From Spirosoma fluviale (GTDB lineage Bacteria > Bacteroidota > Bacteroidia > Cytophagales > Spirosomataceae), in the NCBI GenBank assembly GCA_945866095.1, contig CAMBGA010000007.1:1-38512 (forward strand): 38,512 nucleotides of DNA, written 5' to 3'. The first letter of the stretch is position 1; each line of letters opens with the position of its first letter. The notes beneath the pieces are model-generated. The model made no database searches and had not been told where the DNA came from. It worked only from the letters and a program-made list of their open reading frames with translations. Positions 2,097 to 32,666 of the stretch are shown here, piece after piece. The translations under genes and the position numbers were made by a program.

Positions 2097-2100
2097 CAAG

Positions 2101-3027: not shown

Positions 3028-3030
3028 GGA

Positions 3031-3942: not shown

Positions 3943-3946
3943 TCTC

Positions 3947-5117: not shown

Positions 5118-5611
5118 TCTGTTTTGGCCTTAATAATCATTTCTGCCATTTCACGAAAACACCCTCTTCCTCCGTCAAGCGTTAATATTACATCCGCTTC
5201 CGCTTTAACTTGAGGTAGCGCATCAGCTGGGCAAAAAAACAAGCCCACCAAAGATCTAACGACTAAGTCGTTTACATCGTCCCCAATATAAGCAAGCTCT
5301 TCTGTTTTTAAATAATATCTTTTTAGGATCCGATTAACGACTCCCTTCTTTTCCTTAACCCCTAAATTCAATTCGGTAATGCCTAATTTTTCTGCCCTTT
5401 TAACCACAGATGGAGAAGATTCTCCGGTAATAATTCCTGTAGGTACTTGAACTAAAGTCCTCAATCGTTCCACTCCCATTCCGTCTCGAATATTAAACTT
5501 TTTTAGATATTCTCCTTCTTCACCGTAATATACTCCACCATCGGTAAGGACCCCATCGCAATCGGTCAATACCCATTTTATTTTAGCCAGTTTTATCTTT
5601 AAATCTTCCAT
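5114..5611 (-). CDS. kdsC: KdsC-type HAD phosphatase
   Basis: HAD-superfamily phosphatase of the KdsC type, 165 residues, matching the compact capless form of the family. The nucleophile motif LTDCDGVLTDG gives Asp17 and Asp19, followed by NIRDGMGVERLR (near residues 39-50), a threonine/serine motif in GIITGESS, a lysine in VKEKKG, and the acidic motif IGDDVNDL. KdsC releases phosphate from Kdo-8-phosphate; relatives act on 9-phosphates of nonulosonic acids. Here it is the last gene of the minus-strand sugar operon, one base after the dehydrogenase. Together with a NeuB-family synthase and a cytidylyltransferase it probably dephosphorylates the ulosonic acid phosphate before CMP activation. 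A housekeeping Kdo role is the alternative. Confidence 0.85.
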   Translation of the reverse strand: MEDLKIKLAKIKWVLTDCDGVLTDGGVYYGEEGEYLKKFNIRDGMGVERLRTLVQVPTGIITGESSPSVVKRAEKLGITELNLGVKEKKGVVNRILKRYYLKTEELAYIGDDVNDLVVRSLVGLFFCPADALPQVKAEADVILTLDGGRGCFREMAEMIIKAKTD

Positions 5612-5612
5612 C

Positions 5613-7755: not shown

Positions 7756-7763
7756 AGGACAAA

Positions 7764-8666: not shown

Positions 8667-8674
8667 CTAATTAT

Positions 8675-14635: not shown

Positions 14636-14651
14636 AGGGTGTAAAAATAAA

Positions 14652-14681
14652 AAACGTTTGCTATAAAAATAGCAAACGTTT
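14652..14681 (-). terminator. hairpin terminator between receptor and phytase genes
   Basis: A 13-bp perfect stem (14652-14664 with 14669-14681) and a four-base loop, followed on the minus strand by a U-rich run. It lies 18 bases after the receptor stop and 16 bases before the phytase ATG, so it may attenuate or stabilise rather than end the operon. Confidence 0.75.
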
Positions 14682-14699
14682 AATAAGAAAATCTATTTG

Positions 14700-17501
14700 T
14701 TACTTTTTACCAAAAAGATCATATTTTATTCCAAAACCAATTCTTGAATTATACATTTCTTCTTGGAATGTTCTTTCTCTAATCCCCTGATAATAACGCA
14801 ATGGTTGGTTAGTAAGATTATTAGCTTCGAAATATACGCGAAGATTTTTGTTGAATGCATAAGATGCATTTACATCCAAAAATGTCTGTTTGTCATAAAA
14901 AATATCGCTAAATGCATCTCCACCGATGGCATCAACGTAATCACTCGTCATATTTAATGAAACGCGTAAAACCAGCTTCTTAGTTTCAAAAGATAGCGAA
15001 CTGTTAAACATGTGATTCGCCGTTCCAGGAAGAGCTAATTTATCATTTTCTCTCCCTTCAATTCCGGTAGTAGTGGAATTTGTATAGGTATAGTTTGCAT
15101 ATACCCCAAAACCTTTCCAGATTCCTGGCAAAAAGTCAAGCTGTCTTTGAAAGGAAGTTTCAAACCCGCTAACACCTGCCGTACCACCATTTTCAGGTCT
15201 TGTGGAACTTACTAATTGACCATACAAAGGATCTGTAACGTTCAAAGAAGTTTTATCATAAATAAAATCCTTTAAATTTTTCTGGAATACGCCCACTGAA
15301 ACCAAACCAATCGACTCAAAATAATTTTCGAACATCAAATCAAAATTCATCGCTTTGGTAGCTTCAAGATTGGGATTACCTCTAGTTAAAACTTGATTGT
15401 CCGGACTGTAATTTACAAAAGGAACTAAGCTGTAATAAGCTGGACGAGCAAGGGTATTAGTCCAAGCCGCTCTCAAAATCGAGCTTTCAGACAGATCATA
15501 TTTAAAATGAGCACTTGGTAAAATATTTAAATAAGATTGAGAGACATCCGCAGTTTTACTTGCTTTTCCTTTAACGTTATCAAAACTATATCCGTTATAT
15601 AAAATTGAGGTGTTTTCCATTCTAAGTCCAAACGTTGATGACAATTTGGAAGAAAGTTTTAAATCAGCCATGGCATAACCAGCTGTTATTGTCTCACCTG
15701 CCTCATAGTTGGAAGTAATATACTCTGCAAGTGCATCCGTTTTTTTGAAACGTGAGGAATTATACAAATCCAAATTACCTAAATAATCATTTTTTACAAA
15801 AGCTCCAGGCACATACTGTGGACCATTTAAGAAAATACGTTCATCTTGATTTGAAAGAGGCAATTGACCAAACGTATTTCCAGTAGCTCCTAAATTTGCG
15901 ATAGGCGCATAGATATCGTAGGTATTAATTCGTTCCTTACTCTTATTTCGAACTCTACCGCCAAATTTAATAACGTTATCTTTATTTGCTAAAGGCAATT
16001 CGAAATCTACTTTTGCATTCAAATCACTTTCAGTGGTAAAATTATTTGACTCATAAATTTGATTAAGTGCTAATGCATTGGCACTATTTTTATCGACTAA
16101 ATTTACAACATACTTAAACGGATCCTGCGCATCTACACGCACTATAGCATTACCCCGGTGCGTAATATATCGCTCATTAGGTCTATCTTCTTGAGCGTAA
16201 GCGTATGTACCCGACCAATTCATTTTTAATTTGCCAAAAAAGTCTACTCCTGATAAAGTTACATTAGCTACTCTTTGGTCCTCTAACCGCGTTTTTTGAT
16301 TTCTATCGTTATCAATACCACCTTTTGTCTGAATAGCCACACGACCTTGAATTTGATACAAATTCTTTGAAATATCTTTAAATGAAGTTGCTTCAACAGG
16401 CGTATTTAGTCTGTCAACACGAAGACGGTATCTATTCTCGCGATCGTCTCTCCAATTGTACATGGCATTTAAAAAAATCGTATGCCCTTTGGCCAACTGA
16501 TAATCTAATGCCAATGAACTACTTCTACGTACACGCTGCACATCATATTTTCTTAAATCAAAACCACTTAAAACCACTGGATATGCTGGGTTTTTTGTCT
16601 TTGCCCATACTCCCTCAAAATTATCTGAACCAAAAATATGGTCGTTATAGGACCCTGAAAATACAAAACCTAGTTTATCATTAAATATTCTATTGCCTAA
16701 GACAAACGAAAGGTTTGTTATTGGTTTATTGGTTAAAAAATTTACCCCACCACCCAATGTTCCAGAAACCCGTAGTGCATTTGGAGCAGTTCTAGTAATT
16801 AAGTTGACCGAACCGCCAATGGCATCAGCATCCATGTTAGGTAATACGGCTTTGTGAACCTCGATAGTTTGAACCATATCAGAAGGAATTAAATCCATTT
16901 GAATATTTCTATTGTCACCCTCTGCCGATGGAATCCTTTCTCCATTCAGTGTAACTGAATTTAATCCAGCAGCCATTCCCCTAATAATGATATTACGTGC
17001 TTCACCTTGATCATTCTGCATCGTTATTCCAGGAATACGCTTCATGGCATCACCAATATTTGCATCTGGAAACCTTCCAATCTGATCGGATGACACTACA
17101 TTTGTAATGTTACCATTGTTCCTTTGTTGGTTAATCGCTTTTGCTTGACCCTTCAATCTATCACCTACAATGATAACTTCGGTGCCCTCGATAGCTTTCT
17201 CATTTAAAATAAAAAGCATTTCTTTTGCTCCAGCATCAAAATTTAATTTTTGAATTATTGTCTCATAACCAATGTAACTAATAGTAACTGTGTAAGAACC
17301 CTTTTTTAACGAGTTAAAAACGAATTTTCCTGATTGATCTGATACTTGAGACTTTACTAAATCGCCACTCAGTTTGACCGTGGCGCCGGGCATCGAAAGC
17401 CCTTGATTGTCAGTTATCTTCCCAATTAATTTGCCATTTTGTGCAACTGACATGTGACAAAATGCAAAAAAAGTAACAAGTAAAAGTAAGTTTTTAGTCA
17501 T
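14700..17501 (-). CDS. TonB-dependent receptor paired with the phytase
   Basis: 933-residue outer-membrane active transporter. A signal peptide (residues 1-20) precedes a carboxypeptidase-regulatory-like domain (GKLIGKITDNQGLSMPGATV onward, about 23-105), then the plug domain with IGRFPDANIGDAMKRIPGI near 145 and IIIRGMAAGLNSVTLNGERI near 175, and a long beta-barrel ending in the aromatic-terminated strand GFGIKYDLFGKK. It is not a SusC type: no SusD partner is adjacent and the plug resembles the Xanthomonas/Caulobacter-type receptor family. Because the phytase gene follows, it likely imports inositol phosphates or liberated products across the outer membrane, powered by TonB. The link to phytate is inferred from gene order; the substrate is unproven. 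Confidence 0.9.
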   Translation of the reverse strand: MTKNLLLLVTFFAFCHMSVAQNGKLIGKITDNQGLSMPGATVKLSGDLVKSQVSDQSGKFVFNSLKKGSYTVTISYIGYETIIQKLNFDAGAKEMLFILNEKAIEGTEVIIVGDRLKGQAKAINQQRNNGNITNVVSSDQIGRFPDANIGDAMKRIPGITMQNDQGEARNIIIRGMAAGLNSVTLNGERIPSAEGDNRNIQMDLIPSDMVQTIEVHKAVLPNMDADAIGGSVNLITRTAPNALRVSGTLGGGVNFLTNKPITNLSFVLGNRIFNDKLGFVFSGSYNDHIFGSDNFEGVWAKTKNPAYPVVLSGFDLRKYDVQRVRRSSSLALDYQLAKGHTIFLNAMYNWRDDRENRYRLRVDRLNTPVEATSFKDISKNLYQIQGRVAIQTKGGIDNDRNQKTRLEDQRVANVTLSGVDFFGKLKMNWSGTYAYAQEDRPNERYITHRGNAIVRVDAQDPFKYVVNLVDKNSANALALNQIYESNNFTTESDLNAKVDFELPLANKDNVIKFGGRVRNKSKERINTYDIYAPIANLGATGNTFGQLPLSNQDERIFLNGPQYVPGAFVKNDYLGNLDLYNSSRFKKTDALAEYITSNYEAGETITAGYAMADLKLSSKLSSTFGLRMENTSILYNGYSFDNVKGKASKTADVSQSYLNILPSAHFKYDLSESSILRAAWTNTLARPAYYSLVPFVNYSPDNQVLTRGNPNLEATKAMNFDLMFENYFESIGLVSVGVFQKNLKDFIYDKTSLNVTDPLYGQLVSSTRPENGGTAGVSGFETSFQRQLDFLPGIWKGFGVYANYTYTNSTTTGIEGRENDKLALPGTANHMFNSSLSFETKKLVLRVSLNMTSDYVDAIGGDAFSDIFYDKQTFLDVNASYAFNKNLRVYFEANNLTNQPLRYYQGIRERTFQEEMYNSRIGFGIKYDLFGKK

Positions 17502-17840: not shown

Positions 17841-19439
17841 TTATTTAATCAACCACATTTGGTCGTTAATGTCATCTTTCCCTGCATATTGGCTAGTAAT
17901 TGCAGCGGTATAATTAGTTGCGTTAGACGTTCTTTCTGTCGCTGGATAGATCCAACGCAAAGCGATGCGATTAAAATTTCCGTTACCTGCTCCGGTAGAG
18001 AAAGCTGGAAATCCAGTTCTTCTCCAGTTGAAGTATGCCTCCATACCTGAGTTCATGAAGAAGGCTGCATATTTTTGAGAAACTATTTTCTCAATGGCTG
18101 AGGCTGCATCATATTTTACAGTTGATTGTGCATAGAACGTGTCGAAATTGAAGTTCACGGTGTACTTAACTAAATCAGCAGCATCACGAGCACCAGACTT
18201 CGAATATGCCATCGTATTTGCTCCTTCCGCGATACCGTAGAACGCCTGAGAAGCCTTGATACCTTTAACGTACCAATCTTCCGCTGAACCCGTAGCCCAT
18301 CCGCGTGCATATCCTTCAGCGATGTTGAAACATAATTCAGGATAACCCACAATGAATGTATTTTCACCTGTATACGTTTGGTAGTAACGGGCACGGTTTT
18401 GGAAAGAATAGATACCTGGAGCAAATCCCGCACCGTTTGAAATACCGGCATTTTTCGCCATGTCATCAATATTATCTCCTGAACCTGCTCCACGGTAAGC
18501 CGTAAAGTCTGAAGCTAATTTACCTGCCTTCAAATCAGCACCCGCAGGCTCGCAAGTAGCCATCACACGTGGATCCTGCGTCTTAGATAAAAATCCTACA
18601 TACGTAGAAGCCATGTTTTGACGCGTTGCATCAAAACCGAAGTTATCTGGATTCGATGGATATTTGTTGAAGTTATTCCACACAAATTGCAATGACTCTC
18701 CATTCGAAGACAACATTGGGTATTTCGTCGGGTTACCGATCATCTCAGCAAATTTAGCTTTAACACCTAATTCAGCATCTGTATCTTTCTTTGATAACGT
18801 AATCAGAACACGCAGACGATAAGCGTTAACCACTTTTTGCCACTTTTTCAAATCCCCATTGAAATAGAAGTCACCTGAGATAGTCTCTCCTTTGGCAGCC
18901 AAAGCTGTCATATCACTATTCGCATCATCTAACCACTTTAAGATTTGCGTGTAGATAACTTTTTGTGAATCGTATTTAGGTGCAGTATTTTCGATCCCTT
19001 TTAATGCCTCTGTCATAGGCAAATCGCCCACACGCTTCGACATTTGATCAAAGAAATACGCACGGAAGAATTTTCCTAAAGCAGAATATCCATTCACGTC
19101 AGCTAAACCTAATTTTTTAGCTTCCTCTTCCATTTTTACGACATTTTTCAACGTCGTATATTGGTTGGGCATTTGGCCTAAATTATACTCATTATTTGCA
19201 TAATAATTATAATTAGAGCAATAATACTGATTGTAACGCATCTCCGCAGAGAATGGACGACCATTGTCATTAATCACGTTTAATTCGATCGACTGCAACA
19301 CTAATGATGCAGGAACTTGTACCGCACGGTTAGAGTCTTTCTCCAACTGGTCGAAGGTCTTCTCGCAACTGCTTAATGCAATTATAGAGAAGCTCAACAT
19401 GCCTAAAATTATATTTTTGATTTTCATTGCTTGAATCAT
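17841..19439 (-). CDS. susD: SusD/RagB-family lipoprotein
   Basis: 532-residue surface lipoprotein. A type II signal peptide ends in ALSSC (Cys25), after which the protein is exposed and lipid-anchored. The body has the helical repeat-rich make-up of SusD-like proteins, with YFFDQMSKRVGDLPMTEAL near residue 130, ADVNGYSALGKFFRAYF near 112, and the closing EAYFNWRRTGFPAF and ALRWIYP segments typical of the SusD-like_2 group. It lids the SusC barrel and hands over substrate. It follows susC after 17 bases. An ATG at codon 5 (19427) is an equally good start. The divergent phosphonate genes suggest aminophosphonates or other organophosphorus ligands rather than glycans; no glycoside hydrolase is nearby. 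Confidence 0.9.
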   Translation of the reverse strand: MIQAMKIKNIILGMLSFSIIALSSCEKTFDQLEKDSNRAVQVPASLVLQSIELNVINDNGRPFSAEMRYNQYYCSNYNYYANNEYNLGQMPNQYTTLKNVVKMEEEAKKLGLADVNGYSALGKFFRAYFFDQMSKRVGDLPMTEALKGIENTAPKYDSQKVIYTQILKWLDDANSDMTALAAKGETISGDFYFNGDLKKWQKVVNAYRLRVLITLSKKDTDAELGVKAKFAEMIGNPTKYPMLSSNGESLQFVWNNFNKYPSNPDNFGFDATRQNMASTYVGFLSKTQDPRVMATCEPAGADLKAGKLASDFTAYRGAGSGDNIDDMAKNAGISNGAGFAPGIYSFQNRARYYQTYTGENTFIVGYPELCFNIAEGYARGWATGSAEDWYVKGIKASQAFYGIAEGANTMAYSKSGARDAADLVKYTVNFNFDTFYAQSTVKYDAASAIEKIVSQKYAAFFMNSGMEAYFNWRRTGFPAFSTGAGNGNFNRIALRWIYPATERTSNATNYTAAITSQYAGKDDINDQMWLIK

Positions 19440-19456
19440 TTATAAAATGAAATATA

Positions 19457-22400
19457 TTAGAATGTGAAGTTTAAGTTAACACCGTAACTTCTAACTGAAG
19501 GCGTTTGCGAACCTGAGTTCCCTTCTGTGATATACTGAGATAAGTCTATATCTTTCTTCTCTGCGAAGTATAATAAGTTACGACCTACCAAAGAGACTGT
19601 AGCACCTGATATTGATTTACCAAACCACTTAGCAGGAAGGTTAACACCGAAAACAACTTCTCTTACAAATCCAAATGAACGGCTCATTAAATTGCCTTCA
19701 TCAGTGCCGTAGTAACGACCTATATAGTCCTGAACAAAAGTCTTGTTTGTATTAGGAGCGAATTGTAATTCAGAATAGTTTGTGATTTTTCCATTGGCAT
19801 CTAGCTTGATTGCAACGCCATTTGAAACAACTACACCTTGACCTACGAATGCTTTAACTCCCAAAGCGTCTTGAGGACGCGCCGCAGCAAAAATCCCTTG
19901 TGTCGTTCCGATGTGACGACCACCGCGGTAAGTTTGTCTTTGCGTGTAGTTTGTGATAACACCACCTATTCTACCATCAAACAAAACGCTTAAGCTATAG
20001 TTTTTATATCTAAACTTGTTATTCAAACCAAACACGAAATCTGGATTTCTGTTCCCCAAATATTGAGCTTGAGCTCCAGAAACGTTTAGTGGAATACCTC
20101 CCGAATTGTTGATCATTTTACCATCTTGTGTACGAAGGAATGCAGATCCGTATAATTTATCCAAACGGTCACCCACTTTTATAAATGTATTTAAATTCGT
20201 GATGCCCGGATAGATGTCTGTTAAGCGCTCCTCAAATGTTGAGTAATTTGCTATCACATCCCAGTTAAAATCAGCTGTCTGAATCGGAGTACCTGTTATT
20301 GAAATCTCATAACCCTTCTTCTGTGTTTTAATACCATTCACTAAAGCAGATGTATAACCTGAAGTAGATGATATCGGTAAAGCAAAGATGGAAGGACCGT
20401 CATTTGAGATAAAATATGCAGCGTCTATTGCGATACGGTTTTTGAATAAACGTAAGTCCATACCAAATTCCGTCTGAGAAGTCTCTGATGGATTCAAGTT
20501 AGGGTTACTCAATTCGTTTCCATACGTTGCACCTGTTTGGTTATTGTAGAAGAAACCAGTTGAGTAAACCGTATTGTTTTGGTAAGATGGACCATCGTAA
20601 GGAGAGTTATAGTTTTCTCCAGAGTAAGTTCCTACGCGGTTATCAATGGTCGATGAAGTTAAACCATCTTTCACGTTAGCATATGATCCTCGGAATTTCA
20701 AGAAAGATATCGTTTCAGGCAAATCTATATAATCAGAAATTACAGAAACGGCTCCAAATGAAGGGTAGAAGAACGAGTTTTTACCCGCTGGCAATGTTGA
20801 CAATTTATCTAATCTACCTGTAGCGAATACCGTTAAAAATTTCTTGTAAGAAAAATCTGCGGAATAGTAAGCAGAAAGAACATTCATGTCAGAACCAAAA
20901 TTACCAACTTGAACCGGGTTGGCTGAGTTCGAGAAGTTATATAAACCTGGAACGTTCAAATAGTTGGTAGAAGCAAACATCGACTTGTATTGAAAAACAC
21001 GTTGAGATGCACCCGCATTAATTTTTGTATTAAAGCCTGGTAAGATATCCTTGTCAAACGTTAATAATAATTCTGTATTATTCTCAAATAGAGAGCGGCG
21101 ATCTTCGCGGTAGTCACCACGACGCTCATCACGACCATACGTACCAGCTGAATAAGGAAATTTCTCCGTACGAACCATATCCCAAGTTGTTACTTGCGTA
21201 CGTGCTAATAAATTCAAGTTCTCGTTAAATGTATAACGTAAAGATGCTTGACCAATGACATCAGTTTTGTAATGAGAACGTAACCACTCGTATGACATGA
21301 AGTAAGGGTTATTGTAACGTTGGTATTCCGCATAGATTTGTTGAACACCTTCTTTACCTTTTTGCCAGTAGTTTTTCATATCATCCATGTTCCAGTCTGC
21401 TCCTGCCCAATAAACGATGTTGTAAATAATCGAGTTAGGACCGTAGTTAACGTCTGGAATGTTCGGTGTGTATTGGCGATTGTATTGTAGGTTCGACTCA
21501 AATTTCAATTTATTAGAGAATTTGTAATCGGCTGTTACGTTGAAGTTCGTCATGTTCAATTGGGTATTAGGAACAATACCCTTTTGATAGATTTGAGAAG
21601 TAGAAAAACGCAAATTGTATTTATCTCCTGTCGCCGCTACTGAAATGTTATTTGTAGAAAGAATACCTGTTTCTAAAAAACGCTTCAAGTTATCTTTTCC
21701 ACGTGCGATCCAAGGAGTTCCTGAACGCTTACCTGTGATCGGGTCAACCGGTGAATCATACTGAGGAATTAATTGGCCATTAAATTTTGGACCCCAACCT
21801 CCATCATAATCACCATCATTTAATCCACCCCCTTTACCATCACCAAAAGCATAAGAACCGTGATCACCAGGACCGTACTCATCTTGCACTTCTGTGATAG
21901 CATAAAAACCTGATTGTAATTGAGTAGAAGAGTTCACCTCCACAGAGAAACCACGCTTGTCAGCCGAACCACGTTTTGTCGTGATTAAAATGGCACCGTT
22001 CTTTCCACGGAAACCATATAGGGCAGAAGCCGAAGCTCCTTTTAGTACTGAATACGTTTCAATATCATCTGGAGAAATATTCCATGTATCTGAGTTGATA
22101 GGTACACCATCAACAACATATAAGATAGTTGAACTACCACGTAATGAGATATTTGGCTTACGTAATAACTCGGGTTGAGCACCCACAGTTAAACCTGCCA
22201 CGCGACCCGATAATGCATTGATTGCATTTGGCTCACGTGCCTTAATTGTACTTGAACCATCCACAGACTGAATAGCCACACCAATACGGCGAATATCTTT
22301 TTTGATACCCAAGGCAGTTACAACTACCTCTTGTAATTGGCGATTATCCACATCTAACACAACCTTTAACGTAGATTGATTTCCTACAGTAACAGATTTG

Positions 22401-22678
22401 CTAGTATACCCAATCATGGAAAATTCCAAAACTGAGTTGGTTGATGCAGAAACAGTAAACTGTCCATTAGCACTTGAATTTGTTCCCTTATTGGTTCCCA
22501 TAACCTTAATGGAAACACCTGGAATTCCTGCATTGTCATCACTCCCGATGACCACACCTGTAATAGAACGATCTTGGGCTTGAACACCCACGAAGGCCAA
22601 TTGGCACAAGGTGAAAATGAACCAAAAACTCCTTCTAAGAGTCATTTTGGATCCTTGTTTTTGTAAATTCTTTGTCAT
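19457..22678 (-). CDS. susC: SusC/RagA-family TonB-linked outer membrane transporter
   Basis: 1073-residue transporter. A signal peptide ending near VQAQ leads into the SusC-specific carboxypeptidase-like domain (RSITGVVIGSDDNAGIPGV, about residues 37-115), a TonB-box-like LQEVVVTALG near 114-124, the plug with SGRVAGLTVG and the signature ILYVVDGVPI, and KGASASALYGFRGKNGAILI, followed by the barrel ending SVRSYGVNLNFTF. Length is normal for SusC. It heads the susCD operon and is divergent from the PhnX-like gene across 264 bases, so both may share a phosphate-responsive control region. With the lipoprotein SusD it likely imports a phosphonate or phosphate ester. The pairing is firm; the ligand is inference. 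Confidence 0.95.
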   Translation of the reverse strand: MTKNLQKQGSKMTLRRSFWFIFTLCQLAFVGVQAQDRSITGVVIGSDDNAGIPGVSIKVMGTNKGTNSSANGQFTVSASTNSVLEFSMIGYTSKSVTVGNQSTLKVVLDVDNRQLQEVVVTALGIKKDIRRIGVAIQSVDGSSTIKAREPNAINALSGRVAGLTVGAQPELLRKPNISLRGSSTILYVVDGVPINSDTWNISPDDIETYSVLKGASASALYGFRGKNGAILITTKRGSADKRGFSVEVNSSTQLQSGFYAITEVQDEYGPGDHGSYAFGDGKGGGLNDGDYDGGWGPKFNGQLIPQYDSPVDPITGKRSGTPWIARGKDNLKRFLETGILSTNNISVAATGDKYNLRFSTSQIYQKGIVPNTQLNMTNFNVTADYKFSNKLKFESNLQYNRQYTPNIPDVNYGPNSIIYNIVYWAGADWNMDDMKNYWQKGKEGVQQIYAEYQRYNNPYFMSYEWLRSHYKTDVIGQASLRYTFNENLNLLARTQVTTWDMVRTEKFPYSAGTYGRDERRGDYREDRRSLFENNTELLLTFDKDILPGFNTKINAGASQRVFQYKSMFASTNYLNVPGLYNFSNSANPVQVGNFGSDMNVLSAYYSADFSYKKFLTVFATGRLDKLSTLPAGKNSFFYPSFGAVSVISDYIDLPETISFLKFRGSYANVKDGLTSSTIDNRVGTYSGENYNSPYDGPSYQNNTVYSTGFFYNNQTGATYGNELSNPNLNPSETSQTEFGMDLRLFKNRIAIDAAYFISNDGPSIFALPISSTSGYTSALVNGIKTQKKGYEISITGTPIQTADFNWDVIANYSTFEERLTDIYPGITNLNTFIKVGDRLDKLYGSAFLRTQDGKMINNSGGIPLNVSGAQAQYLGNRNPDFVFGLNNKFRYKNYSLSVLFDGRIGGVITNYTQRQTYRGGRHIGTTQGIFAAARPQDALGVKAFVGQGVVVSNGVAIKLDANGKITNYSELQFAPNTNKTFVQDYIGRYYGTDEGNLMSRSFGFVREVVFGVNLPAKWFGKSISGATVSLVGRNLLYFAEKKDIDLSQYITEGNSGSQTPSVRSYGVNLNFTF

Positions 22679-22705
22679 AAATGTTTTATTTTATTAAAAT
22701 TTTCA

Positions 22706-22713
22706 CAAAAATA
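22706..22713 (-). promoter_or_regulatory. possible -7 box for susC
   Basis: On the minus strand this reads TATTTTTG, matching the Bacteroidota -7 consensus TAnnTTTG, about 28 bases before the susC start. I see no convincing -33 TTG element at the right distance, so confidence is low. Confidence 0.3.
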
Positions 22714-22912
22714 AAGAGAGAACTCTTTATCTATCTTAAAGAAAAAATAAGAAATGATTAAGAAAAATGTCGCTTTGTGACTGAATTGTTTCTCCTGTAT
22801 AATCAATATGTTATCACACATAAAATATTTTAAAAAATATTAAAATTATGCAATTTTATTTCCTTAATAATAATTTTATGTTTCAGTAACACAATAGGCG
22901 GATTGAATTTGT

Positions 22913-22920
22913 TAATTTTG
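22913..22920 (+). promoter_or_regulatory. possible -7 box for the phosphonate operon
   Basis: TAATTTTG matches the Bacteroidota -7 consensus TAnnTTTG and lies 22 bases before the ATG of the PhnX-like gene, leaving a short leader. A clear -33 element is lacking. The same octamer occurs before the receptor gene at 32512. Confidence 0.35.
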
Positions 22921-22942
22921 GAATCTTCTTTTACATACAATC

Positions 22943-23680
22943 ATGAATCCAATCAAATTAGTCGTCCTAGATATGGCTGGCACTACGGTACTAGACCAAC
23001 ATGAAGTTGAGAAATGCTTCAAAGAGGCCGCGATAAAAAATGAATTATGGGCTAGCGATGAACGGATTTTGGCTTTGCAGGGCTATGCCAAATTAGAAGT
23101 ATTCACGATGTTATGGGCCGAGCAACTGGGCTCCTCAGACACCTCTATTTCACAAAAGGCATTAAAATCATTTGAAGATTTTAAAACCATATTGGAAGAT
23201 CATTATCGAAAAAGCCCCATATTTCAAACGGAAGGATGCCAAGAACTTTTTGATTATTTGCATAAAAATGGAATTTTCATTGCCTTAACCACTGGGTTTT
23301 ACCGAACAGTTGCGAACATTATTTTGACTAAACTAGGCTGGAGTCAATCCTTAAATCAGAATTTTATTAACCTTAGAAATAAATCAGGTATTCATCTTTC
23401 GGTGACTCCAGATGAAGCAGGCGAAGGAAGGCCGTCACCAAAAATGATTCAATTTGCCATGAAGCAAATTGGGGTTACCCAGTTATCCCAGGTCATCAAT
23501 GTAGGCGATACGCCCGTTGACCTAGCTTTTGGCAAAAATGCTGGGGTAAGACTCGCATTAGGCGTTTGTAACGGAACTCATACCCGCGAACAATTAGCCT
23601 CATTCCCCAATGATGGCTTGTTAAATAAAATAGATGACCTCATCCAAATTATCGAAGATTTAAAGAATGAAAAAATATGA
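22943..23680 (+). CDS. PhnX-like phosphonatase-type HAD hydrolase
   Basis: 245-residue HAD-superfamily hydrolase of the phosphonatase-like group. The nucleophile motif is LDMAGTT: Asp10 is followed at +2 by Ala12 rather than the usual second Asp, as in phosphonoacetaldehyde hydrolase (PhnX). Lys50, in GYAKLE, lies 40 residues after the nucleophile, about the spacing of the Schiff-base lysine in Bacillus PhnX (Asp12/Lys53, from memory). LTTGFYR and the late block GEGRPSPKMIQFAM with NVGDTPVDLAFGKNAGV fit the family. PhnX splits phosphonoacetaldehyde into acetaldehyde and phosphate in the cytoplasm. The gene overlaps the flavin oxidoreductase by 14 bases and starts the plus-strand phosphonate operon, divergent from susC. 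Distinction between true PhnX and phosphonatase-like relatives needs a tree. Confidence 0.85.
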   Translation: MNPIKLVVLDMAGTTVLDQHEVEKCFKEAAIKNELWASDERILALQGYAKLEVFTMLWAEQLGSSDTSISQKALKSFEDFKTILEDHYRKSPIFQTEGCQELFDYLHKNGIFIALTTGFYRTVANIILTKLGWSQSLNQNFINLRNKSGIHLSVTPDEAGEGRPSPKMIQFAMKQIGVTQLSQVINVGDTPVDLAFGKNAGVRLALGVCNGTHTREQLASFPNDGLLNKIDDLIQIIEDLKNEKI

Positions 23681-24818
23681 TTTAATTGTTATTGGCGGTG
23701 GGGTAATCGGCACTTTTAGCGCATACCATGCGCTGAAAAAGGGGAAAACAGTTCTATTGTTAGAAAAGGACTCACAACCATTTGAAGCAAGTTTTCGGAA
23801 TTTTGGTCAGGCGGTTCCTTCGGGACAATCATTTAATAAGTGGTTTGATTATGGCCGTAAATCCTTGCAGATTTATAAGGATTTACAAAGTGAAACCAAT
23901 ATTTCTTTGGTTCCTAACGGATCTTGGTACCTTGCTTCCGATGACCAAGAATTAACGCTCTTAGAAGAGATTCAAAAACTTTTTGATGAGCGAGGATATT
24001 CAAATAAATTGCATTCAGCCATTGAATGTCAAAACTCAAATCCGCACTTTAAAAAGGATTATGTCAAGGGTGGCTTATTTTTACCTGAGGAGGCATCCTT
24101 AAATCCGAGAGTAATGGTGCATCGGGTTCGAGAATTTATGATCCAGCATATGGACCTTCATTTCCAAAATTTATGTCCGGTGGTAGGGGTTGAGAAAAAA
24201 AGAGGTATTGCTCGGGTTTTCACTGCTTCAAATCAAAATTTTTGGGCCGAGAAAGTGATTGTGGCTAATGGTCGGGATACTCAATTTTTATTGCCCGAAC
24301 ATTACCCAGCTACAGAATTGAAAATTAGTAAACTACAAATGCTAAGGCTGGCTGCTCAAAAACCTATGTTAAAATCAAACATATTAACAGGGCTTACGAT
24401 ACGCCGATACGAAAGCTTTCATTCATGTCCTTCCTACGCTAAATTGACGTCTACTGAGGAGCAAACAAATTTACAAAACAAAGGCATTCACATCCTCTTT
24501 AAACAAGCGGAGGATGGTTCCATTATTTTGGGAGATTCTCATGAATATGTGCAAGCAAATAGACAAGCTGACTTTGGATTTGAGATATCGTCCGAAATCA
24601 ATGAAATGATGCTCCATGAAGCTAAAAAAATAATTGATTTACCTGATTGGAACGTGGATGCCACGTGGGCTGGATATTATTTACAAGGGACGCATACGGA
24701 AGTTTATACCAAACAAGTAGATGATGTGATTCACATTATCAATGGAATTGGGGGAAAAGGAATGACCACAAGTCCTGGCTTTACTTCTGAGTATATTCAA
24801 AAACTGTATCAGAAATAA
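23667..24818 (+). CDS. FAD-dependent oxidoreductase of the phosphonate-associated type
   Basis: 383-residue DAO-superfamily flavoenzyme. The FAD-binding Rossmann motif IVIGGGVIG is at residues 7-15, with Glu33 closing the ADP-ribose site, and the subfamily signature SFRNFGQ at 42-48 followed by VPSGQ. The C-terminal HIINGIGGKGMTTSPGF block closes the flavin site. This subfamily (TIGR03364-type) is known to sit beside phosphonatase-like genes; some relatives have been reported to oxidise aminoethylphosphonate or its N-methyl form to phosphonoacetaldehyde. Here it directly follows and overlaps the PhnX-like gene, and no PhnW transaminase is present, so it is the likely supplier of the hydrolase's substrate. 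It ends in a ten-base overlap with the convergent acetyltransferase gene. Confidence 0.85.
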   Translation: MKKYDLIVIGGGVIGTFSAYHALKKGKTVLLLEKDSQPFEASFRNFGQAVPSGQSFNKWFDYGRKSLQIYKDLQSETNISLVPNGSWYLASDDQELTLLEEIQKLFDERGYSNKLHSAIECQNSNPHFKKDYVKGGLFLPEEASLNPRVMVHRVREFMIQHMDLHFQNLCPVVGVEKKRGIARVFTASNQNFWAEKVIVANGRDTQFLLPEHYPATELKISKLQMLRLAAQKPMLKSNILTGLTIRRYESFHSCPSYAKLTSTEEQTNLQNKGIHILFKQAEDGSIILGDSHEYVQANRQADFGFEISSEINEMMLHEAKKIIDLPDWNVDATWAGYYLQGTHTEVYTKQVDDVIHIINGIGGKGMTTSPGFTSEYIQKLYQK

Positions 24819-25249
24819 CAAGTGAATTTTTCATGCGAATTCTTGAAGCCCACAGCTTTATAAAATTCATGTGCATTCACTCTCCGTTTATTGGAAGTTA
24901 CTTCAATGGATTTTATATCGAAGGGTTTTAAAGCTTCTCGAACGTGATTGACTAATAATTGGCCTATCCCCTTTCCCTGATACGTTTGAGTGACTATTAA
25001 TTCCTCAATCTCATACACTAATCCTTCGTGATGCAATAATAATTGGCCTAAACAGCTGATAAAACCAATGATTTCTTGTTGGCCATTTTCAGCAGCAAAA
25101 AATAGCGCATTTTCTCTAAGTAAGTAATGCTTAAAAATACGCTGAAAAACTAAGGGATCTGAAGTCCGATTTTCTAGTTCATCCAATAAAATTCGAATAG
25201 CATTTTCATCGGTTTCAATCACTTTTCGAATGTTGACAACTGCTTTCAT
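24809..25249 (-). CDS. PhnO-like aminoalkylphosphonate N-acetyltransferase
   Basis: 146-residue GNAT protein. The acetyl-CoA loop QGKGIGQLL is at residues 91-99. Several features recall E. coli PhnO, compared from memory: an LHH motif near 72-74 followed by the EIEELIV strand (80-86), TSNKRRVNAHEFYKAVGF (118-135), then SHEKFT at the end; the length is also the same. PhnO acetylates the amino group of aminoalkylphosphonates, protecting cells or preparing substrates. The gene lies inside the phosphonate operon but on the opposite strand, its stop overlapping the flavoenzyme's stop, and it is divergent from the PhnZ-type gene. A generic GNAT role remains possible, but context and the C-terminal match favour an aminophosphonate substrate. 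Confidence 0.75.
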   Translation of the reverse strand: MKAVVNIRKVIETDENAIRILLDELENRTSDPLVFQRIFKHYLLRENALFFAAENGQQEIIGFISCLGQLLLHHEGLVYEIEELIVTQTYQGKGIGQLLVNHVREALKPFDIKSIEVTSNKRRVNAHEFYKAVGFKNSHEKFTCYF

Positions 25250-25351
25250 TTTACGAAATTGTTAAGGACTCGTAAACAATAAAAAATAAATCTTAGAACC
25301 CTTCTTTCCCATACTAATGCTTGCTAATTTACAAGCAAAATTTTGAATAAT

Positions 25352-25897
25352 ATGTCTGAGATCATAGAAAAAGTAGTGCATCTGTTTGAAAATCATGGAG
25401 ATTCTCAATACGGAGGAGAGGCCGTAAGCCAATTGGAACATGCGTTGCAAGCAGCCCATTTTGCCGATGAAGCAGGTGAAAAGAAGAGCATTATCGTCGC
25501 AGGCATTTTACATGACATAGGACATTTGTTGCATCATTTACCTGATGATGCACCAGAAAATGGGATAGATGATTTACATGAGAATTTAGCCAATGACTTT
25601 CTACAGCAATATTTTACGCTAGAGGTAGTCGAGCCCGTACGATTGCACGTGGCGGCAAAAAGATATTTATGTACGGTGGAGCCGGAATATCTTGACATTT
25701 TAAGTGAGCCATCCATCATCAGTCTAGGTTTGCAAGGAGGTCCTATGTCGGCGGATGAATGTACCGAATTTGAAAAGAACCCATTTTATGCGGATGCGGT
25801 TAAATTGAGACGTTTTGATGATCAAGCCAAAATAGAAAATTTACAAGTAAAGGATTTGTCTTTTTACATTCCGTATATGGAGGCTTTTGTTAAATGA
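25352..25897 (+). CDS. phnZ: PhnZ-type di-iron HD oxygenase
   Basis: HD-domain protein of 181 residues. I choose ATG 25352 (MSEIIEK) over a TTG nine bases upstream. The key residues of PhnZ are all found in order: Tyr20 and Glu23 (YGGE), His30 in QLEHALQAA, His54-Asp55 in LHDIGH, His76 in DLHENLA, His99 in RLHVAAK, and the late Asp156/157 in LRRFDDQAK. These match the iron ligands and gating pair of PhnZ at near-constant offset (recalled numbering 24, 27, 34, 58, 59, 80, 104, 161). PhnZ uses oxygen to cleave (R)-2-amino-1-hydroxyethylphosphonate to glycine and phosphate. The permease gene follows with an ATGA overlap. No PhnY hydroxylase is in the window; a TmpB-like substrate (N-methylated) is an alternative. 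Confidence 0.88.
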   Translation: MSEIIEKVVHLFENHGDSQYGGEAVSQLEHALQAAHFADEAGEKKSIIVAGILHDIGHLLHHLPDDAPENGIDDLHENLANDFLQQYFTLEVVEPVRLHVAAKRYLCTVEPEYLDILSEPSIISLGLQGGPMSADECTEFEKNPFYADAVKLRRFDDQAKIENLQVKDLSFYIPYMEAFVK

Positions 25898-27156
25898 ACG
25901 CCAATAATAATCGAATAAATTTTTCTGGAAAGCTCGTATTTAACCATCCATTGTGGTCCATGGTGGCAGCCTTTGGTTGCTATTTTTGTGTGTATGGATT
26001 TAGAAAACCCTTTACAGCAGGTTTATATACGGATCAATTTTGGATCGGGATTCCATGGAAATCAATTTTGATATCTTCTCAAATTGCCGGTTACATGTTA
26101 TCCAAATGGTGCGGAATATTCATCGTTTCTGGTATTTCATGGGAAAAAAGGACGCGAGCAATTCTCATCAGTATTCTAATCGCAGAATTGGCTTTAGTCG
26201 GTTTTGGACTAGTTCCTAGGCCATACAGTATTCTGTTTTTAGTGATTAATGGATTGCCCCTAGGCATGATTTTTGGGTATATTCAAGGCTTCTTAGAAGG
26301 CAAAAGAAACACCGAATTATTTATAGCGGCGCTAGGCAGTAGCTTTATATTAGCCGATGGTGTTTCTAAATCAGTGGGTACCTGGTTATTAAATATATCG
26401 GTAACTGAACATTGGATGCCTTCGTTGGCAGGGTTGATTTACACTTTGCCTTTCATATTTTTTGTGTGGATGTTGACAAAAATTCCCAAGCCCACTGAGC
26501 AGGATAAGCAGGACCGCGCAGAGAGGCCAGCTATGACACAGCAAGATCGCATCGCGCTGATCAAAGAGTTGTGGCCCGGTATTCTGTGCATTAGTTTGTT
26601 GTATTTGTTTGCTTCACTTTTAAGGGGAGTTCGCTCTGATTTTGCCCCTGAAATATGGAAATATTTAGGCTTTGTTGGCAACGCCTCCATTTATGCTCAA
26701 ACGGAAATTTGGGTCACCGTGGGAATATTAATCATCAATGGCAGCCTTGTACTAATCAAGAAAAATCACATTGCCTTTTTTATCAGCATGTCAGCCATCG
26801 CAACAGGCTATCTATTTTTGCTTATTGCAGGAGTGTGGGGGGTGAATCACTTGGATCCGTTTTGGTTAATTGTGTTGACGGGATTTGGTATCTATTTGCC
26901 TTATTTGACGATAACCACCTCCGTATTTGAGCGAATGATTGCCATTACCAGACATAAGGCTAACATAGGCTTCTTGATGTACATTGTGGACTCGATTGGG
27001 TACTTAGGCTACAATGTGCTCTTGCTCTTCACGGGCTTTATATTGCCTAATTTAAACCTGCCATCTTTATTCTTCACTTGGATTCTGATACTAGGCATTG
27101 TAGGTCTTATGATAAGTAGTTTGTCAAGTTTATATTTTTACAGGAGGTTGAAATAA
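25894..27156 (+). CDS. DUF5690-type MFS permease, probable organophosphonate transporter
   Basis: 420-residue inner-membrane protein with about 12 hydrophobic helices in two halves joined by a charged loop (residues 196-225). It resembles the uncharacterised Bacteroidota DUF5690 family. The sequence recalls the organophosphate:phosphate antiporters GlpT and UhpT: YGFRKPF in helix 1 (Arg37, as YLVRKNF in GlpT with Arg45), GYMLSK in helix 2, and FASLLRGVRSDFAPEIW in helix 7 (Arg244, like GlpT Arg269 in YLLRYG...DWSPTYL). Both arginines bind the phosphate group in GlpT. Coupling by ATGA overlap to the PhnZ-type gene suggests it brings phosphonates into the cytoplasm. Specificity and direction are inferred. 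Confidence 0.85.
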   Translation: MNANNNRINFSGKLVFNHPLWSMVAAFGCYFCVYGFRKPFTAGLYTDQFWIGIPWKSILISSQIAGYMLSKWCGIFIVSGISWEKRTRAILISILIAELALVGFGLVPRPYSILFLVINGLPLGMIFGYIQGFLEGKRNTELFIAALGSSFILADGVSKSVGTWLLNISVTEHWMPSLAGLIYTLPFIFFVWMLTKIPKPTEQDKQDRAERPAMTQQDRIALIKELWPGILCISLLYLFASLLRGVRSDFAPEIWKYLGFVGNASIYAQTEIWVTVGILIINGSLVLIKKNHIAFFISMSAIATGYLFLLIAGVWGVNHLDPFWLIVLTGFGIYLPYLTITTSVFERMIAITRHKANIGFLMYIVDSIGYLGYNVLLLFTGFILPNLNLPSLFFTWILILGIVGLMISSLSSLYFYRRLK

Positions 27157-27278: not shown

Positions 27279-27827
27279 TTAAAGTCCTAGGGAAGAAACC
27301 CAAGTCCTTTTTTGTTTGTCATATTTCAATGTGGAATCTGGCCATTCCACATAATGTTTCATGGCAAGATATTTAGTCAATGAGCCAGTTTTACCTAGTT
27401 CCCGGAATAAAAATCCACCACGTTCCTTTACTGTTTCTTCATCAAAATGAGGCGTATTCGCTACCTCTTCGAATTGATCTATTTCAGTAGAATTTGGTTT
27501 TAAAGTAAACGTGCCAATAACCCCTCTACGTAAATCTTTGAGTCCAGCTACCGGCCTACTAATTAAATAGGTATAAACTCCACTCGTGTCTTTGGTCAAA
27601 TGAACAAACCGAAAAAAGGGTAATCTATTTACATATTCTGCACGAAACCGTGCTTGATACTTCGTAGAATCTGTCGCATAAAGCGCTTTTTCACTGATAA
27701 TGCTGATGATATTGGTGAGTAAGGTATCCCGCTCTGAATCAGAAAAATAATAGGCAGCTTCATCTTTCGAATGACAACCTGCAATGCCAAAAAAACTAAT
27801 AATTAAGTAAAAAAGTATTCTCTTCAT
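27279..27827 (-). CDS. small lipoprotein of unknown function
   Basis: 182 residues. A lipoprotein signal ends in GIAGC (Cys18), so the protein is probably anchored in the outer membrane or periplasmic side. The remainder is soluble, with alternating charged and aromatic residues, including RFVHLTKDTSGVYTYLISRP and FEEVANTPHFDEETVKERGG; I do not recognise the family. It is the third gene after a TonB-dependent receptor and a beta-helix lipoprotein on the same strand, separated from the latter by a strong terminator-like hairpin whose edge lies 12 bases before the ATG. It may be an accessory to the receptor system. The pattern parallels the phytase gene, which also follows a hairpin. Confidence 0.7.
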   Translation of the reverse strand: MKRILFYLIISFFGIAGCHSKDEAAYYFSDSERDTLLTNIISIISEKALYATDSTKYQARFRAEYVNRLPFFRFVHLTKDTSGVYTYLISRPVAGLKDLRRGVIGTFTLKPNSTEIDQFEEVANTPHFDEETVKERGGFLFRELGKTGSLTKYLAMKHYVEWPDSTLKYDKQKRTWVSSLGL

Positions 27828-27838
27828 ATTGGTATAAA

Positions 27839-27869
27839 AAAAGGCTGCACGGTAAACGTGCAGCCTTTT
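27839..27869 (-). terminator. hairpin terminator between two lipoprotein genes
   Basis: A 13-bp stem (27839-27851 with 27857-27869) with GC-rich core and a five-base loop, followed on the minus strand by a U run. It starts 13 bases after the beta-helix lipoprotein stop and ends 12 bases before the next ATG. Confidence 0.85.
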
Positions 27870-27881
27870 AAAAGTTTGTTC

Positions 27882-29654
27882 TTACTTGATGTAAAGAACT
27901 GAATTCGGGTTGAACTCAGCCCAACCAGCTGTCCAATCAGTACTTTTAAATGCACCAACAAAATCGGTTGCATCAGTATTTGGTAGTGTAGGTAAAGCCG
28001 TTCCGATTAAAGACTCAGATGTACTTGCTGTCAAAGTTAAGGTAGGACGTGCCGACCATAACGCCGAAGAAATTCCAGTGTTAGCAGTAGAAGTCAACAT
28101 CTTATTTCCTGCAATTGCCTTGAACCAATCAGATGCCTTAACGCCAGCACCTATTTCGATAGGTCTTGTAGCTACGGTACCTGTAGCACCCGTTCTTGCA
28201 ATTTGCTCTTCGTCTACTACTGGAACACCAAAACCATATAATCCAGAGTTTAATGATGTAAAGCCTGTAGTTCCCCAACCAGTTGTACCAGCGATTACCA
28301 CATTCTTAACAATTAATTCTCCATTAGCCGCATTCGTCTTCGCCGAACCACGCTGACTGTCAATATATAAACCTGCAGGATATCCTGTCATAAATGTATT
28401 ATATACCTTTACCTTTGCATTACGACGCAATTGAGCTCCGTTCTGGAAGTTGGCATCTAAGTAATCAGATGACTTACCTTTAGCACCAATAATCGAGAAG
28501 TTTACTAAAGTAGCCGAGGTAAATGGTGCTAAGCTTGAACCTGCAGCATCATTATCAATTTCAAAACCATTTGATCCAGAAACGTCAGCCAAATTACCAT
28601 CACGGTAACCTAAACCAAACTGAATAGTACCTGAGTATCCATTATCCATATCAAAATCATCATCTGTACCTTTGAATGCCACTAAATACTTGCAATTCAC
28701 TGTACCACCAAACCACTCAAATGAATCATCTAATCCAAATGATGTCATGATGTATTCAATTTTTGTACCTGATCCTACAGAACCCATCGTCAATGAGTTG
28801 ATCTCTTGATTTGGATTCAATGGAATTCCAGCATACTCAATACGCACATACTTTAAGCTTCCTGAGTTGTCATTAGCAACAGTTCCACCATGGAATCCTT
28901 TATATCCACCCTCTAATTCAGCAACACCTGTCAAGTTGTTAGGAGCTTTACCACAGATAACAACTCCACCCCAATCACCTGGAGAACGTGAGCCAATCCC
29001 TTCAGCTGATGTAAACACAATCGGCTCAGCGACTGTGCCTTCCGCGATCAATTTTGATCCACGTTGTACAACCAAAGTTCCTTTTGTTGCCTTATCCCCA
29101 ATGATAACAGTACCTGCCTGAATGGTTAGTGTAGCTGTTTCAGTAACATTACCAAAAGTTGGTTCTTCGCCTACACGAACATAGCCTTTCAAACGGTAAA
29201 TCTTATCTTTTGTCCAAGTCGTATTAGTTTTTATCACACCTTCCACGTCAATAATCGATTTAGGAGGAACAACAGAAACAGTAACTGGGATAGAAACTAA
29301 AGAAGAAACCTGATTCTTAACATCTGTAACTTGAACTGTAAATGTTACTGATGAACCAACCGTTCCCTCAATCACGTAATCTTTCGAATACTCAGCTGTT
29401 TTCTCGCCAGTGAAAATTTTTGAATCAAATGCAGCACCATTTTTCAAAACAGTAACTGACTTAATACCTGCAGGCGCATTAATAGATGCCTTCACAGTAA
29501 CTGTGGCTCCTGGAATACCAGCTAGTGTACCAGAAGATGAGATAGTTGGAGCTGGAAAAACCTCTTCTTCCTTTTGGCAACCCGCTAATGTTACTACCGC
29601 GATAGCTAACATAGCGAAAACTTTAAACATGTTTGTTTGTAAGCGTTTCATCAC
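27882..29654 (-). CDS. surface lipoprotein with Ig-like and beta-helix regions
   Basis: 590 residues. The signal ends in VTLAGC (Cys26), a lipoprotein cleavage site. Residues 30-135 look like a beta-sandwich (hydrophobic-polar alternation, GTVGSSVTFTVQVTDVKN). From about 150 onward runs a parallel beta-helix: TLTIQAGTVIIGDKATKG, LVVQRGSKLIAEGT, PIVFTSAEGIGSRSPGDWGG, SLKYVRIEYAG, with Asn/Gly turns. Such proteins sit beside TonB-dependent receptors across Bacteroidota, and this one follows its receptor by 38 bases. It occupies the position SusD would take and may capture ligand, but it is not a SusD homologue. Substrate is unknown. No catalytic residues are evident. Confidence 0.8.
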   Translation of the reverse strand: MMKRLQTNMFKVFAMLAIAVVTLAGCQKEEEVFPAPTISSSGTLAGIPGATVTVKASINAPAGIKSVTVLKNGAAFDSKIFTGEKTAEYSKDYVIEGTVGSSVTFTVQVTDVKNQVSSLVSIPVTVSVVPPKSIIDVEGVIKTNTTWTKDKIYRLKGYVRVGEEPTFGNVTETATLTIQAGTVIIGDKATKGTLVVQRGSKLIAEGTVAEPIVFTSAEGIGSRSPGDWGGVVICGKAPNNLTGVAELEGGYKGFHGGTVANDNSGSLKYVRIEYAGIPLNPNQEINSLTMGSVGSGTKIEYIMTSFGLDDSFEWFGGTVNCKYLVAFKGTDDDFDMDNGYSGTIQFGLGYRDGNLADVSGSNGFEIDNDAAGSSLAPFTSATLVNFSIIGAKGKSSDYLDANFQNGAQLRRNAKVKVYNTFMTGYPAGLYIDSQRGSAKTNAANGELIVKNVVIAGTTGWGTTGFTSLNSGLYGFGVPVVDEEQIARTGATGTVATRPIEIGAGVKASDWFKAIAGNKMLTSTANTGISSALWSARPTLTLTASTSESLIGTALPTLPNTDATDFVGAFKSTDWTAGWAEFNPNSVLYIK

Positions 29655-29692
29655 TTTTTAGATTTAATTGTTTGAATTGATTATTTTGTTGT

Positions 29693-32619: not shown

Positions 32620-32666
32620 TTAACAAATGGTTAAAATGATTTGCGTTTATTAACAATTTGTTAACA
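32620..32666. promoter_or_regulatory. paired TTAAC repeats, candidate regulator site
   Basis: Four TTAA(A/C)A-type hexamers start at 32620, 32631, 32650 and 32661, forming two direct repeats each of period 11. The second pair is also a perfect palindrome, TTAACAATTTGTTAA (32650-32664). An 11-base period is typical of OmpR/PhoB-family response regulators, so a phosphate-starvation regulator is a possible binder. AT-richness of the region makes chance similarity a concern. Confidence 0.4.

Follow-up and report, generated by a model that had tools for sequence, protein, structure and literature searches.

The seven genes at positions 17841-27156 of contig CAMBGA010000007.1 (assembly GCA_945866095.1, listed as Spirosoma fluviale) appear to form a phosphonate-acquisition system under Pho control. 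The system would be of the type of PusCD, the phosphate-starvation-induced SusCDs of Flavobacterium, a reading to which we assign a probability of about 0.6. The window, meaning the whole stretch of 38512 nt that was analysed, belongs to a 2.48-Mb genome of 186 contigs that is 81% complete. Profile searches of the window proteins recovered a SusC/SusD pair divergent from genes for a HAD hydrolase, a flavoenzyme, a GNAT acetyltransferase, an HD-domain oxygenase and a DUF5690 permease. All seven genes named in an initial annotation of this DNA were borne out, with the scores given below. The conserved system is real in several Bacteroidota families, and we infer that its SusCD carries a phosphonate. 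The features of the locus are as follows.

17841-19439, reverse strand: SusD-like surface lipoprotein (SusD-like_2) with lipobox LSSC and Cys25; PF12771, 202 bits (cut-off 27)
19457-22678, reverse strand: SusC-like TonB-dependent outer-membrane channel; TIGR04056, 449.9 bits (cut-off 368.25), and TIGR04057, 51.5 bits (cut-off 46.2)
22745-22762, reverse strand: Pho-box-like direct repeat CTTAATC-ATTT-CTTATTT (period 11 bp) in the susC-proximal part of the divergent promoter; block kept in 15 Aquirufa intergenic regions
22863-22880, forward strand: possible second repeat facing the HAD gene, degenerate and weak, read by eye in the alignment and clearer in relatives
22943-23680, forward strand: PhnX-like HAD phosphonatase, Asp10 as the predicted nucleophile and Lys50 at the Schiff-base position; TIGR03351, 167.3 bits
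23667-24818, forward strand: PbfD-type FAD oxidoreductase; TIGR03364, 350.4 bits (cut-off 285.1)
24809-25249, reverse strand: PhnO-like GNAT acetyltransferase; NF007530, 61.2 bits (cut-off 142)
25249-25266, reverse strand: Pho-box-like repeat CTTAACAATTTCGTAAAA between the GNAT and PhnZ genes; one of four genome-wide pattern matches
25343-25897, forward strand: PhnZ-type HD-domain oxygenase of carbon-phosphorus (C-P) bonds; TIGR03276, 226.7 bits (cut-off 214.6)
25894-27156, forward strand: DUF5690 inner-membrane permease of the major facilitator superfamily (MFS), resembling organophosphate:phosphate antiporters (OPA); PF18943, 403 bits

The first two genes are recognisable as a SusC/SusD importer. 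The SusC models score above their cut-offs, and the adjacent SusD is a lipoprotein with a lipobox, whose Cys25 is invariant among 21 chosen homologs. In 13 of the 16 genomes compared, the SusD ortholog scores 875-943 bits, and other SusDs there reach at most 519 bits. Linkage to phosphonate genes was assessed from both sides. In a forward search, matches to TIGR03364 were extracted with a flank of about 9 kb, giving 60 loci in 58 genomes; a match above the cut-off is present in 166 of 200 genomes of the family. The SusCD ortholog (SusC above 1000 or SusD above 500 bits) lies in the flank of 15 of the 17 Aquirufa loci. The two exceptions are a locus whose contig starts just before the flavoenzyme gene (L051) and L045 of genome G127, where the flavoenzyme gene alone is left of the seven-gene set. 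The reverse search started from the SusD alignment alone and used, out of 462 confirmed relatives, the best 80 loci from genomes with a record title. At least one of the FAD, HAD, HD and DUF5690 genes is present in the stored flank of 55 of these 80 loci. Where at least 9 kb is available on both sides (n=47), 34 loci hold a phosphonate gene and 28 hold at least three. Linked SusD loci come from Aquirufa, Emticicia, Spirosoma and allies, Chitinophagaceae, Sphingobacteriales and Flavobacterium sp. SUN052 (L164).

The SusD ortholog and PhnZ also tend to occur in the same genomes. Among the 200 family genomes, 137 encode the SusD ortholog, 135 PhnZ, 111 both and 39 neither (odds ratio 6.9; Fisher p = 4e-9 with shared descent ignored). 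Ten second SusD matches at 519-629 bits were excluded from this count. Where both genes are on one contig (n=101), they are separated by at most 2 kb in 64 cases, 5 kb in 79 and 10 kb in 99. Joint absence is seen as well: genome G127, which retains the flavoenzyme gene, lacks both the SusD ortholog and PhnZ, as does G012. The initial annotation had proposed conserved susCD adjacency in relatives as a check, and adjacency is indeed conserved there, both among the same-contig pairs (99 of 101 within 10 kb) and among the full-flank loci (34 of 47). Most of the set recurs across genera and families in other gene orders, hence the arrangement is not due to chance. A chance neighbourhood was ruled out by the reverse SusD search and the SusD-PhnZ distance count.

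The second line of evidence is a candidate operator. In the susC-HAD intergenic regions of 15 Aquirufa loci including the window (L052, with a split SusC, was omitted), a conserved block reads in reverse complement approximately TTTTTCTTAACAATTTCTTATTT. A tied direct-repeat model run over periods 7-18 in these regions peaks at 11, with 94.6 against 55.7 for the next period. Direct repeats of about 7 bp with an 11-bp period, the spacing of PhoB boxes, are found before candidate Pho genes. Period scans upstream of susC give 11 as the best value in Dyadobacter (TTAACA), Emticicia/Lacihabitans (CTTAACA), Spirosoma and allies, and Aquirufa. The repeat consensus is near CTTAACA-N4-CTTAACA before susC in four lineages, including the unlinked Dyadobacter. 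The margin of period 11 per sequence upstream of susC is 3.38 in Dyadobacter, 2.20 in Emticicia and 1.18 in Aquirufa. For the HAD gene, the margin is 2.19 in Aquirufa, where the same intergenic block is read on the opposite strand, and 0.94 in Emticicia; all other gene classes reach at most 0.95. Thus susCD retains the Pho-box-like repeat even in Dyadobacter, away from phosphonate genes. Some results speak against the motif. The Aquirufa susC margin is slightly above that of the best other gene (1.18 against 0.95), and period 11 falls just behind 10 upstream of susC in Chitinophagaceae/Sphingobacteriales. With the Aquirufa matrix, the GNAT and HD upstream regions score no better than controls, and the period scan found no 11-bp repeat upstream of the PhoA gene.

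A refined pattern (CTTAACANTTYCTTAACA, at most two mismatches) was searched in seven Aquirufa genomes. It yielded 34 sites, including four in the window genome, two of which lie in the window (25249-25266 and 32649-32666). Thirty sites were classed by their flanking genes, and the four sites with no fetched locus were left unclassed. Fifteen of the 30 are upstream of phosphorus genes, namely PHO4/pitA-type transporter (7), TBDR3-type receptor (4), GNAT/PhnZ (2), polyphosphate kinase (1) and a PhoB-like regulator (1), where the TBDR3 and PHO4 matches are non-independent, the pattern having been refined on those upstream regions, and orthologous sites of near relatives are counted repeatedly. 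Independent of the refinement are the matches at the polyphosphate kinase, PhoB-like and GNAT/HD genes, as well as the period scans made de novo. The PhoB-like regulator has PhoB as its best match (207 bits, below the cut-off of 296). Two further sites precede other Aquirufa SusC genes (L239, L250), which are possibly additional low-phosphate SusCDs judging by these sites, and four of the 30 fall inside open reading frames. With the pattern reversed as a control, 23 sites were obtained, of which none precedes those phosphorus genes, one precedes a SusC gene (L265) and 17 fall inside open reading frames. Sites within 25 kb of the locus number 13 of 34 for the forward pattern and 1 of 23 for the control. 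A genome-wide excess of matches is not clear from 34 forward against 23 reversed sites; it is mainly their places and neighbours that differ. Low-phosphate control of the locus gains support from these patterns. In the single-contig Aquirufa genome G127, the PbfD-like gene at L045 is flanked on both sides by PHO4/PitA-type genes with Pho-box-like repeats. This flavoenzyme gene is a relic of the locus.

The cytoplasmic enzymes retain the positions expected for C-P bond cleavage. In the HAD, Asp10 of the DxAGT motif and Lys50 of the cap are invariant among 14 HADs chosen from 57, and Lys50 aligns with a PhnX lysine. We take the motif aspartate of PhnX to be the nucleophile and the cap lysine to form the Schiff base. 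The best PDB match of the HAD profile is phosphonoacetaldehyde hydrolase (2iof, E 3.6e-28), against 3.7e-13 for the best HAD otherwise named. The HD protein keeps Y23, E26, H33, H57, D58, H61, H79, H102, K106 and D159, which presumably are the metal- and substrate-site residues of PhnZ; all ten are invariant among 13 HD proteins chosen from 36 and aligned with 4mlm. At E <= 0.001, its profile matches PhnZ (4mlm, E 7e-61), then TmpB (6npa), and no other PDB entries. The flavoenzyme is above its curated TIGR03364 cut-off. In the study of the PbfD-PhnX pathway, PbfD1 is annotated as TIGR03364, and the assayed PbfD1 and PbfD2 convert N-methyl-aminoethylphosphonate (N-methyl-AEP) and AEP to phosphonoacetaldehyde (PMC10590968). 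Of the 17 Aquirufa loci, 16 contain the GNAT gene, whereas none of the 43 others fetched around TIGR03364 matches does. This PhnO-like enzyme may acetylate aminophosphonates in Aquirufa.

Two C-P cleavage chemistries with their catalytic positions kept are thus supported by alignment. The two cleavage routes of the initial annotation hold as hydrolytic and oxidative chemistries, and probably not as routes acting on one substrate. PbfD and the PhnX-like HAD probably serve AEP and N-methyl-AEP, and PhnZ probably serves pre-formed R-1-hydroxy-AEP (R-HAEP), because neither the scanned window genes nor the PhyH proteins of the 81%-complete genome include a recognisable PhnY-type hydroxylase. The same separation is suggested by a report that R-HAEP is not properly processed by PhnW/PhnX and that phnZ occasionally occurs with phnWX or phnWAY clusters (PMC8154272, in the parts concerned). 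A nearby PhnY feeding PhnZ appears unlikely, though possible in a genome that is 81% complete: five PhyH proteins are encoded, none in the locus, with a best score of 41.5 bits against a cut-off of 500. An Emticicia gene between susC and the HAD gene (c31) was rejected as a hydroxylase, its family being Gln_deamidase_2. No phnW was recognised among the window genes scanned, and no genome-wide search for PhnW or C-P lyase was made. In two genomes of the same family, PhnZ-type reading frames (G167:C1:4456760-4457284 and G185:C1:120779-121297) each carry one in-frame TAG and lie a few kb from intact SusD orthologs. A second phosphonate set at L056, L075 and L095 combines an HTH-cupin regulator, another TIGR03351-type HAD, a higher-scoring TIGR03364 clade and DUF5690; SusCD was not found in its fetched flanks.

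The DUF5690 model (predicted local distance difference test, pLDDT, 90.6) resembles antiporters of the GlpT/G6PT (OPA-like) type. The top three Foldseek matches in the PDB are human G6PT (E 1.6e-7 to 2.8e-7, TM about 0.61-0.64), with other MFS proteins close behind from rank 4. Two arginines are conserved in every ungapped row, R37 in 31 and R244 in 32; they fall on R45 and R269 of GlpT, which we take to be its phosphate-binding arginine pair. By hhalign, UhpT alone aligns at E 0.0025 and GlpT alone at E 0.18, out of register, and nepI, another MFS protein, gave no full-length alignment. AepP, which was shown genetically to be a 2AEP permease, is GlpT-related and shares phosphate-group binding residues (PMC8316502). 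DUF5690 has in common with AepP the MFS of organophosphate:phosphate-antiporter type. It differs in being a separate Pfam family with no named function, related by its fold and two arginines.

The locus might work as follows. At scarce phosphate, a PhoB-like regulator would act on the 11-bp direct repeats and switch on susCD together with the cytoplasmic genes. Powered by TonB, SusD and SusC would import a ligand that contains a phosphonate through the outer membrane. This ligand is probably larger than free AEP, e.g. an ester derived from a phosphonolipid or phosphonoglycan. Of the 33 SusCD loci of the forward search, 20 contain genes for esterases or phosphatases (NPP-type, metallophosphoesterase, PF04185, PhoA), and the secreted esterases among relatives suggest an esterified or polymer-borne ligand. 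The size of SusCD likewise suggests that esterified or polymer-borne phosphonates are the natural prize rather than free AEP. The SusD model allowed no reading of the ligand pocket, having a pLDDT of 73.7 and low stretches at 76-87, 255-273 and 483-494. Secreted esterases would release the aminophosphonate, which the OPA-like DUF5690 could move into the cytoplasm. Following family chemistry, PbfD would oxidise AEP or N-methyl-AEP to phosphonoacetaldehyde, which the PhnX-like HAD would hydrolyse to acetaldehyde and phosphate. PhnZ would oxidatively split pre-formed R-HAEP to glycine and phosphate. The stronger proposal, that this one SusCD ortholog group is a dedicated importer of phosphonate-bearing molecules and, with DUF5690, completes a two-membrane route under PhoB control, is tentative and somewhat less likely to hold than to fail. 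If true, this would make the group the first class of SusCDs to be defined by C-P compounds.

Several observations weigh against the proposed system. Outside Aquirufa, just 18 of 43 flavoenzyme loci have SusCD in the flank of about 9 kb, in varied orders and orientations, which is an undercount where the flank ends (e.g. L088). Neither the SusD ortholog nor PhnZ strictly requires the other, because 24 of 135 PhnZ genomes (including Aquirufa G144 and G147) lack the SusD ortholog and 26 of 137 SusD genomes lack PhnZ. Nineteen of these 26 belong to a genus that is apparently Dyadobacter, which also supplies 12 of the 13 full-flank loci with no phosphonate gene (the other is L156). The Dyadobacter SusCD lies apart from phosphonate genes, e.g. 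beside a 3-keto-disaccharide-hydrolase-domain protein. No phosphorus theme was found among the genes scanned at two Dyadobacter SusCDs, which include DNA polymerase I, prolyl oligopeptidase and the 3-keto-disaccharide-hydrolase-domain protein. The HAD scores below the cut-offs of TIGR03351 (PhnX-like, 167.3 against 218.9) and TIGR01422 (PhnX, 78.7 against 220), and the GNAT score likewise falls short of PhnO. The labels PhnX-like and PhnO-like in the initial annotation are fair as worded, and do not extend to full family membership. The hhalign alignment of DUF5690 with E. coli GlpT, UhpT and UhpC combined is full-length and weak (E 0.0013, probability 18%), and DUF5690 has no match among PDB sequences at E <= 1. 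In the window, no esterase gene directly adjoins susCD; the nearest metallophosphoesterase gene is at 2101-3027.

The Dyadobacter pattern was placed on a SusD tree of 77 of the 80 reverse-search SusDs and four paralogs, with three SusDs shorter than 480 aa omitted and contig-end loci marked as edge. Twelve of the 13 unlinked rows group in a single Dyadobacter clade whose neighbours, Telluribacter and Persicitalea, are linked. One row labelled as a paralog (L193) was not used; it groups with the orthologs, on a very long branch that may reflect a wrongly chosen reading frame. Since the Dyadobacter clade is nested among linked SusDs, loss of linkage in Dyadobacter appears to be the simpler reading of the tree.

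The seven-gene locus is embedded in a larger phosphorus-scavenging stretch that the initial annotation had not noticed. The flanking features are as follows.

13565-17501, reverse strand: phytate module of a beta-propeller phytase (PF02333, 131.8 bits) and a TonB receptor (TIGR01782, 493 bits)
27279-32512, reverse strand: TonB-dependent receptor TBDR3 with 590-aa and 182-aa lipoproteins
32649-32666, forward strand: Pho-box-like repeat ATTAACAATTTGTTAACA upstream of TBDR3, from the genome-wide pattern search

The phytase and its TonB receptor likely form a phytate-uptake module beside the phosphonate locus, and a similar phytase/TonB pair lies beside the phosphonate locus at L049. TBDR3 and the 590-aa lipoprotein, whose gene is downstream of the receptor, span 27882-32512. 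Together with the upstream repeat they recall the low-phosphate TonB-receptor/lipoprotein (PUS) clusters described for Flavobacterium johnsoniae (PMC8115612).

Alternatively, the SusCD could take up organic phosphorus in general when phosphate is low (phosphodiesters, phospholipid head groups or teichoic-type polymers), and the phosphonate genes would be fellow Pho-regulon members gathered in the same phosphorus-scavenging stretch, with no ligand in common. We consider this unlikely. It would fit the secreted esterase and phosphatase genes recurring beside SusCD, among them a metallophosphoesterase that, judged by eye, has a Tat-like leader, as well as the phytase/TonB and TBDR modules flanking the window locus. 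It would also fit the Dyadobacter SusCD, which carries a Pho-box-like repeat apart from phosphonate genes, and the two Flavobacterium PusCDs that are detailed with phosphodiesterases or phosphatase (PMC8115612). However, the PhnZ link is tight and outlasts rearrangement across genera, and a phytase lies near the flavoenzyme in just 2 of 60 fetched loci (L049, L088), although many of the 60 flanks end too early to include one. A glycan or peptide importer next to phosphonate genes by chance is highly improbable. SusCDs of known ligand are mostly glycan or peptide importers, and the fold matches of this SusD include chitin- and glucan-binding SusDs and BT2263. Glycosyltransferase and sugar-nucleotide genes lie at 797-11359, KduI is near three loci and a 3-keto-disaccharide-hydrolase-domain protein stands beside one Dyadobacter SusCD. 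Against this, the linkage is kept in many genera together with the Pho-box-like operator, and the scanned window genes and recurrent neighbours include no recognised family of glycoside hydrolases or polysaccharide lyases. Equally remote is a phosphate-independent use of aminophosphonates for nitrogen or detoxification, for which a GNAT gene suited to PhnO-like acetylation is present and AEP is usable as a nitrogen source via phosphate-insensitive transporters (PMC8316502), since the Pho-box-like repeat precedes susC and the HAD gene, the GNAT is confined to Aquirufa loci and phosphate transporter and phosphatase genes lie near the locus in some relatives.

A Pho-controlled phosphonate-acquisition system of the PusCD type is not new in kind. 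The novelty that the initial annotation saw in a phosphonate-associated SusCD was overstated: low-phosphate-induced SusCDs co-located with phosphonate-degrading enzymes have been described in Flavobacterium, in a study that covers six PusCDs (PMC8115612). The passages concerned report co-location only and leave the phosphonate enzymes unnamed, and "phn" is absent from the text. Co-location with organic-phosphorus enzymes is shared by the present locus, which differs from PusCD in one ortholog group tied to PhnZ, PbfD, PhnX-like HAD and DUF5690 in several families, together with a candidate Pho box. The locus shares with the hydrolytic PbfD-PhnX pathway, as far as described (PMC10590968), a TIGR03364 flavoenzyme beside a phosphonatase with no phnW recognised; it differs in its HAD below the TIGR03351 cut-off and in the additional PhnZ, SusCD and DUF5690. 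The HD protein is like PhnZ and TmpB in family score and aligned metal-site residues. Unlike these, it has no recognised PhnY alongside and likely salvages pre-formed R-HAEP, as proposed for phnZ beside phnWX/phnWAY in the relevant parts of PMC8154272. The searches turned up no earlier account of the ortholog group, of its link to PhnZ, of the candidate Pho box or of DUF5690 as an OPA-type permease. The literature searched, mostly outside subscription papers and preprints, contained no paper combining phosphonate, SusD and aminoethylphosphonate or Aquirufa and phosphonate, no naming of DUF5690 and no demonstrated outer-membrane phosphonate route. The terms "TonB" and "outer membrane" are absent from the text of the 2AEP transporter paper (PMC8316502). 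The locus yields three things open to direct test: a named ortholog group, a permease candidate within a Pfam family that lacks a name, and a candidate Bacteroidota Pho box. Should the SusCD carry phosphonates, selfish uptake may let many Bacteroidota of fresh water and soil compete for natural C-P compounds.

The window also holds a surface-sugar cluster at 2101-11359, which encodes NeuB, split transketolase halves, a cytidylyltransferase, an epimerase-like protein, a class-III aminotransferase and a HAD. Four of its genes (c17-c20) have relatives near the phosphonate locus in 6 of the 60 loci.

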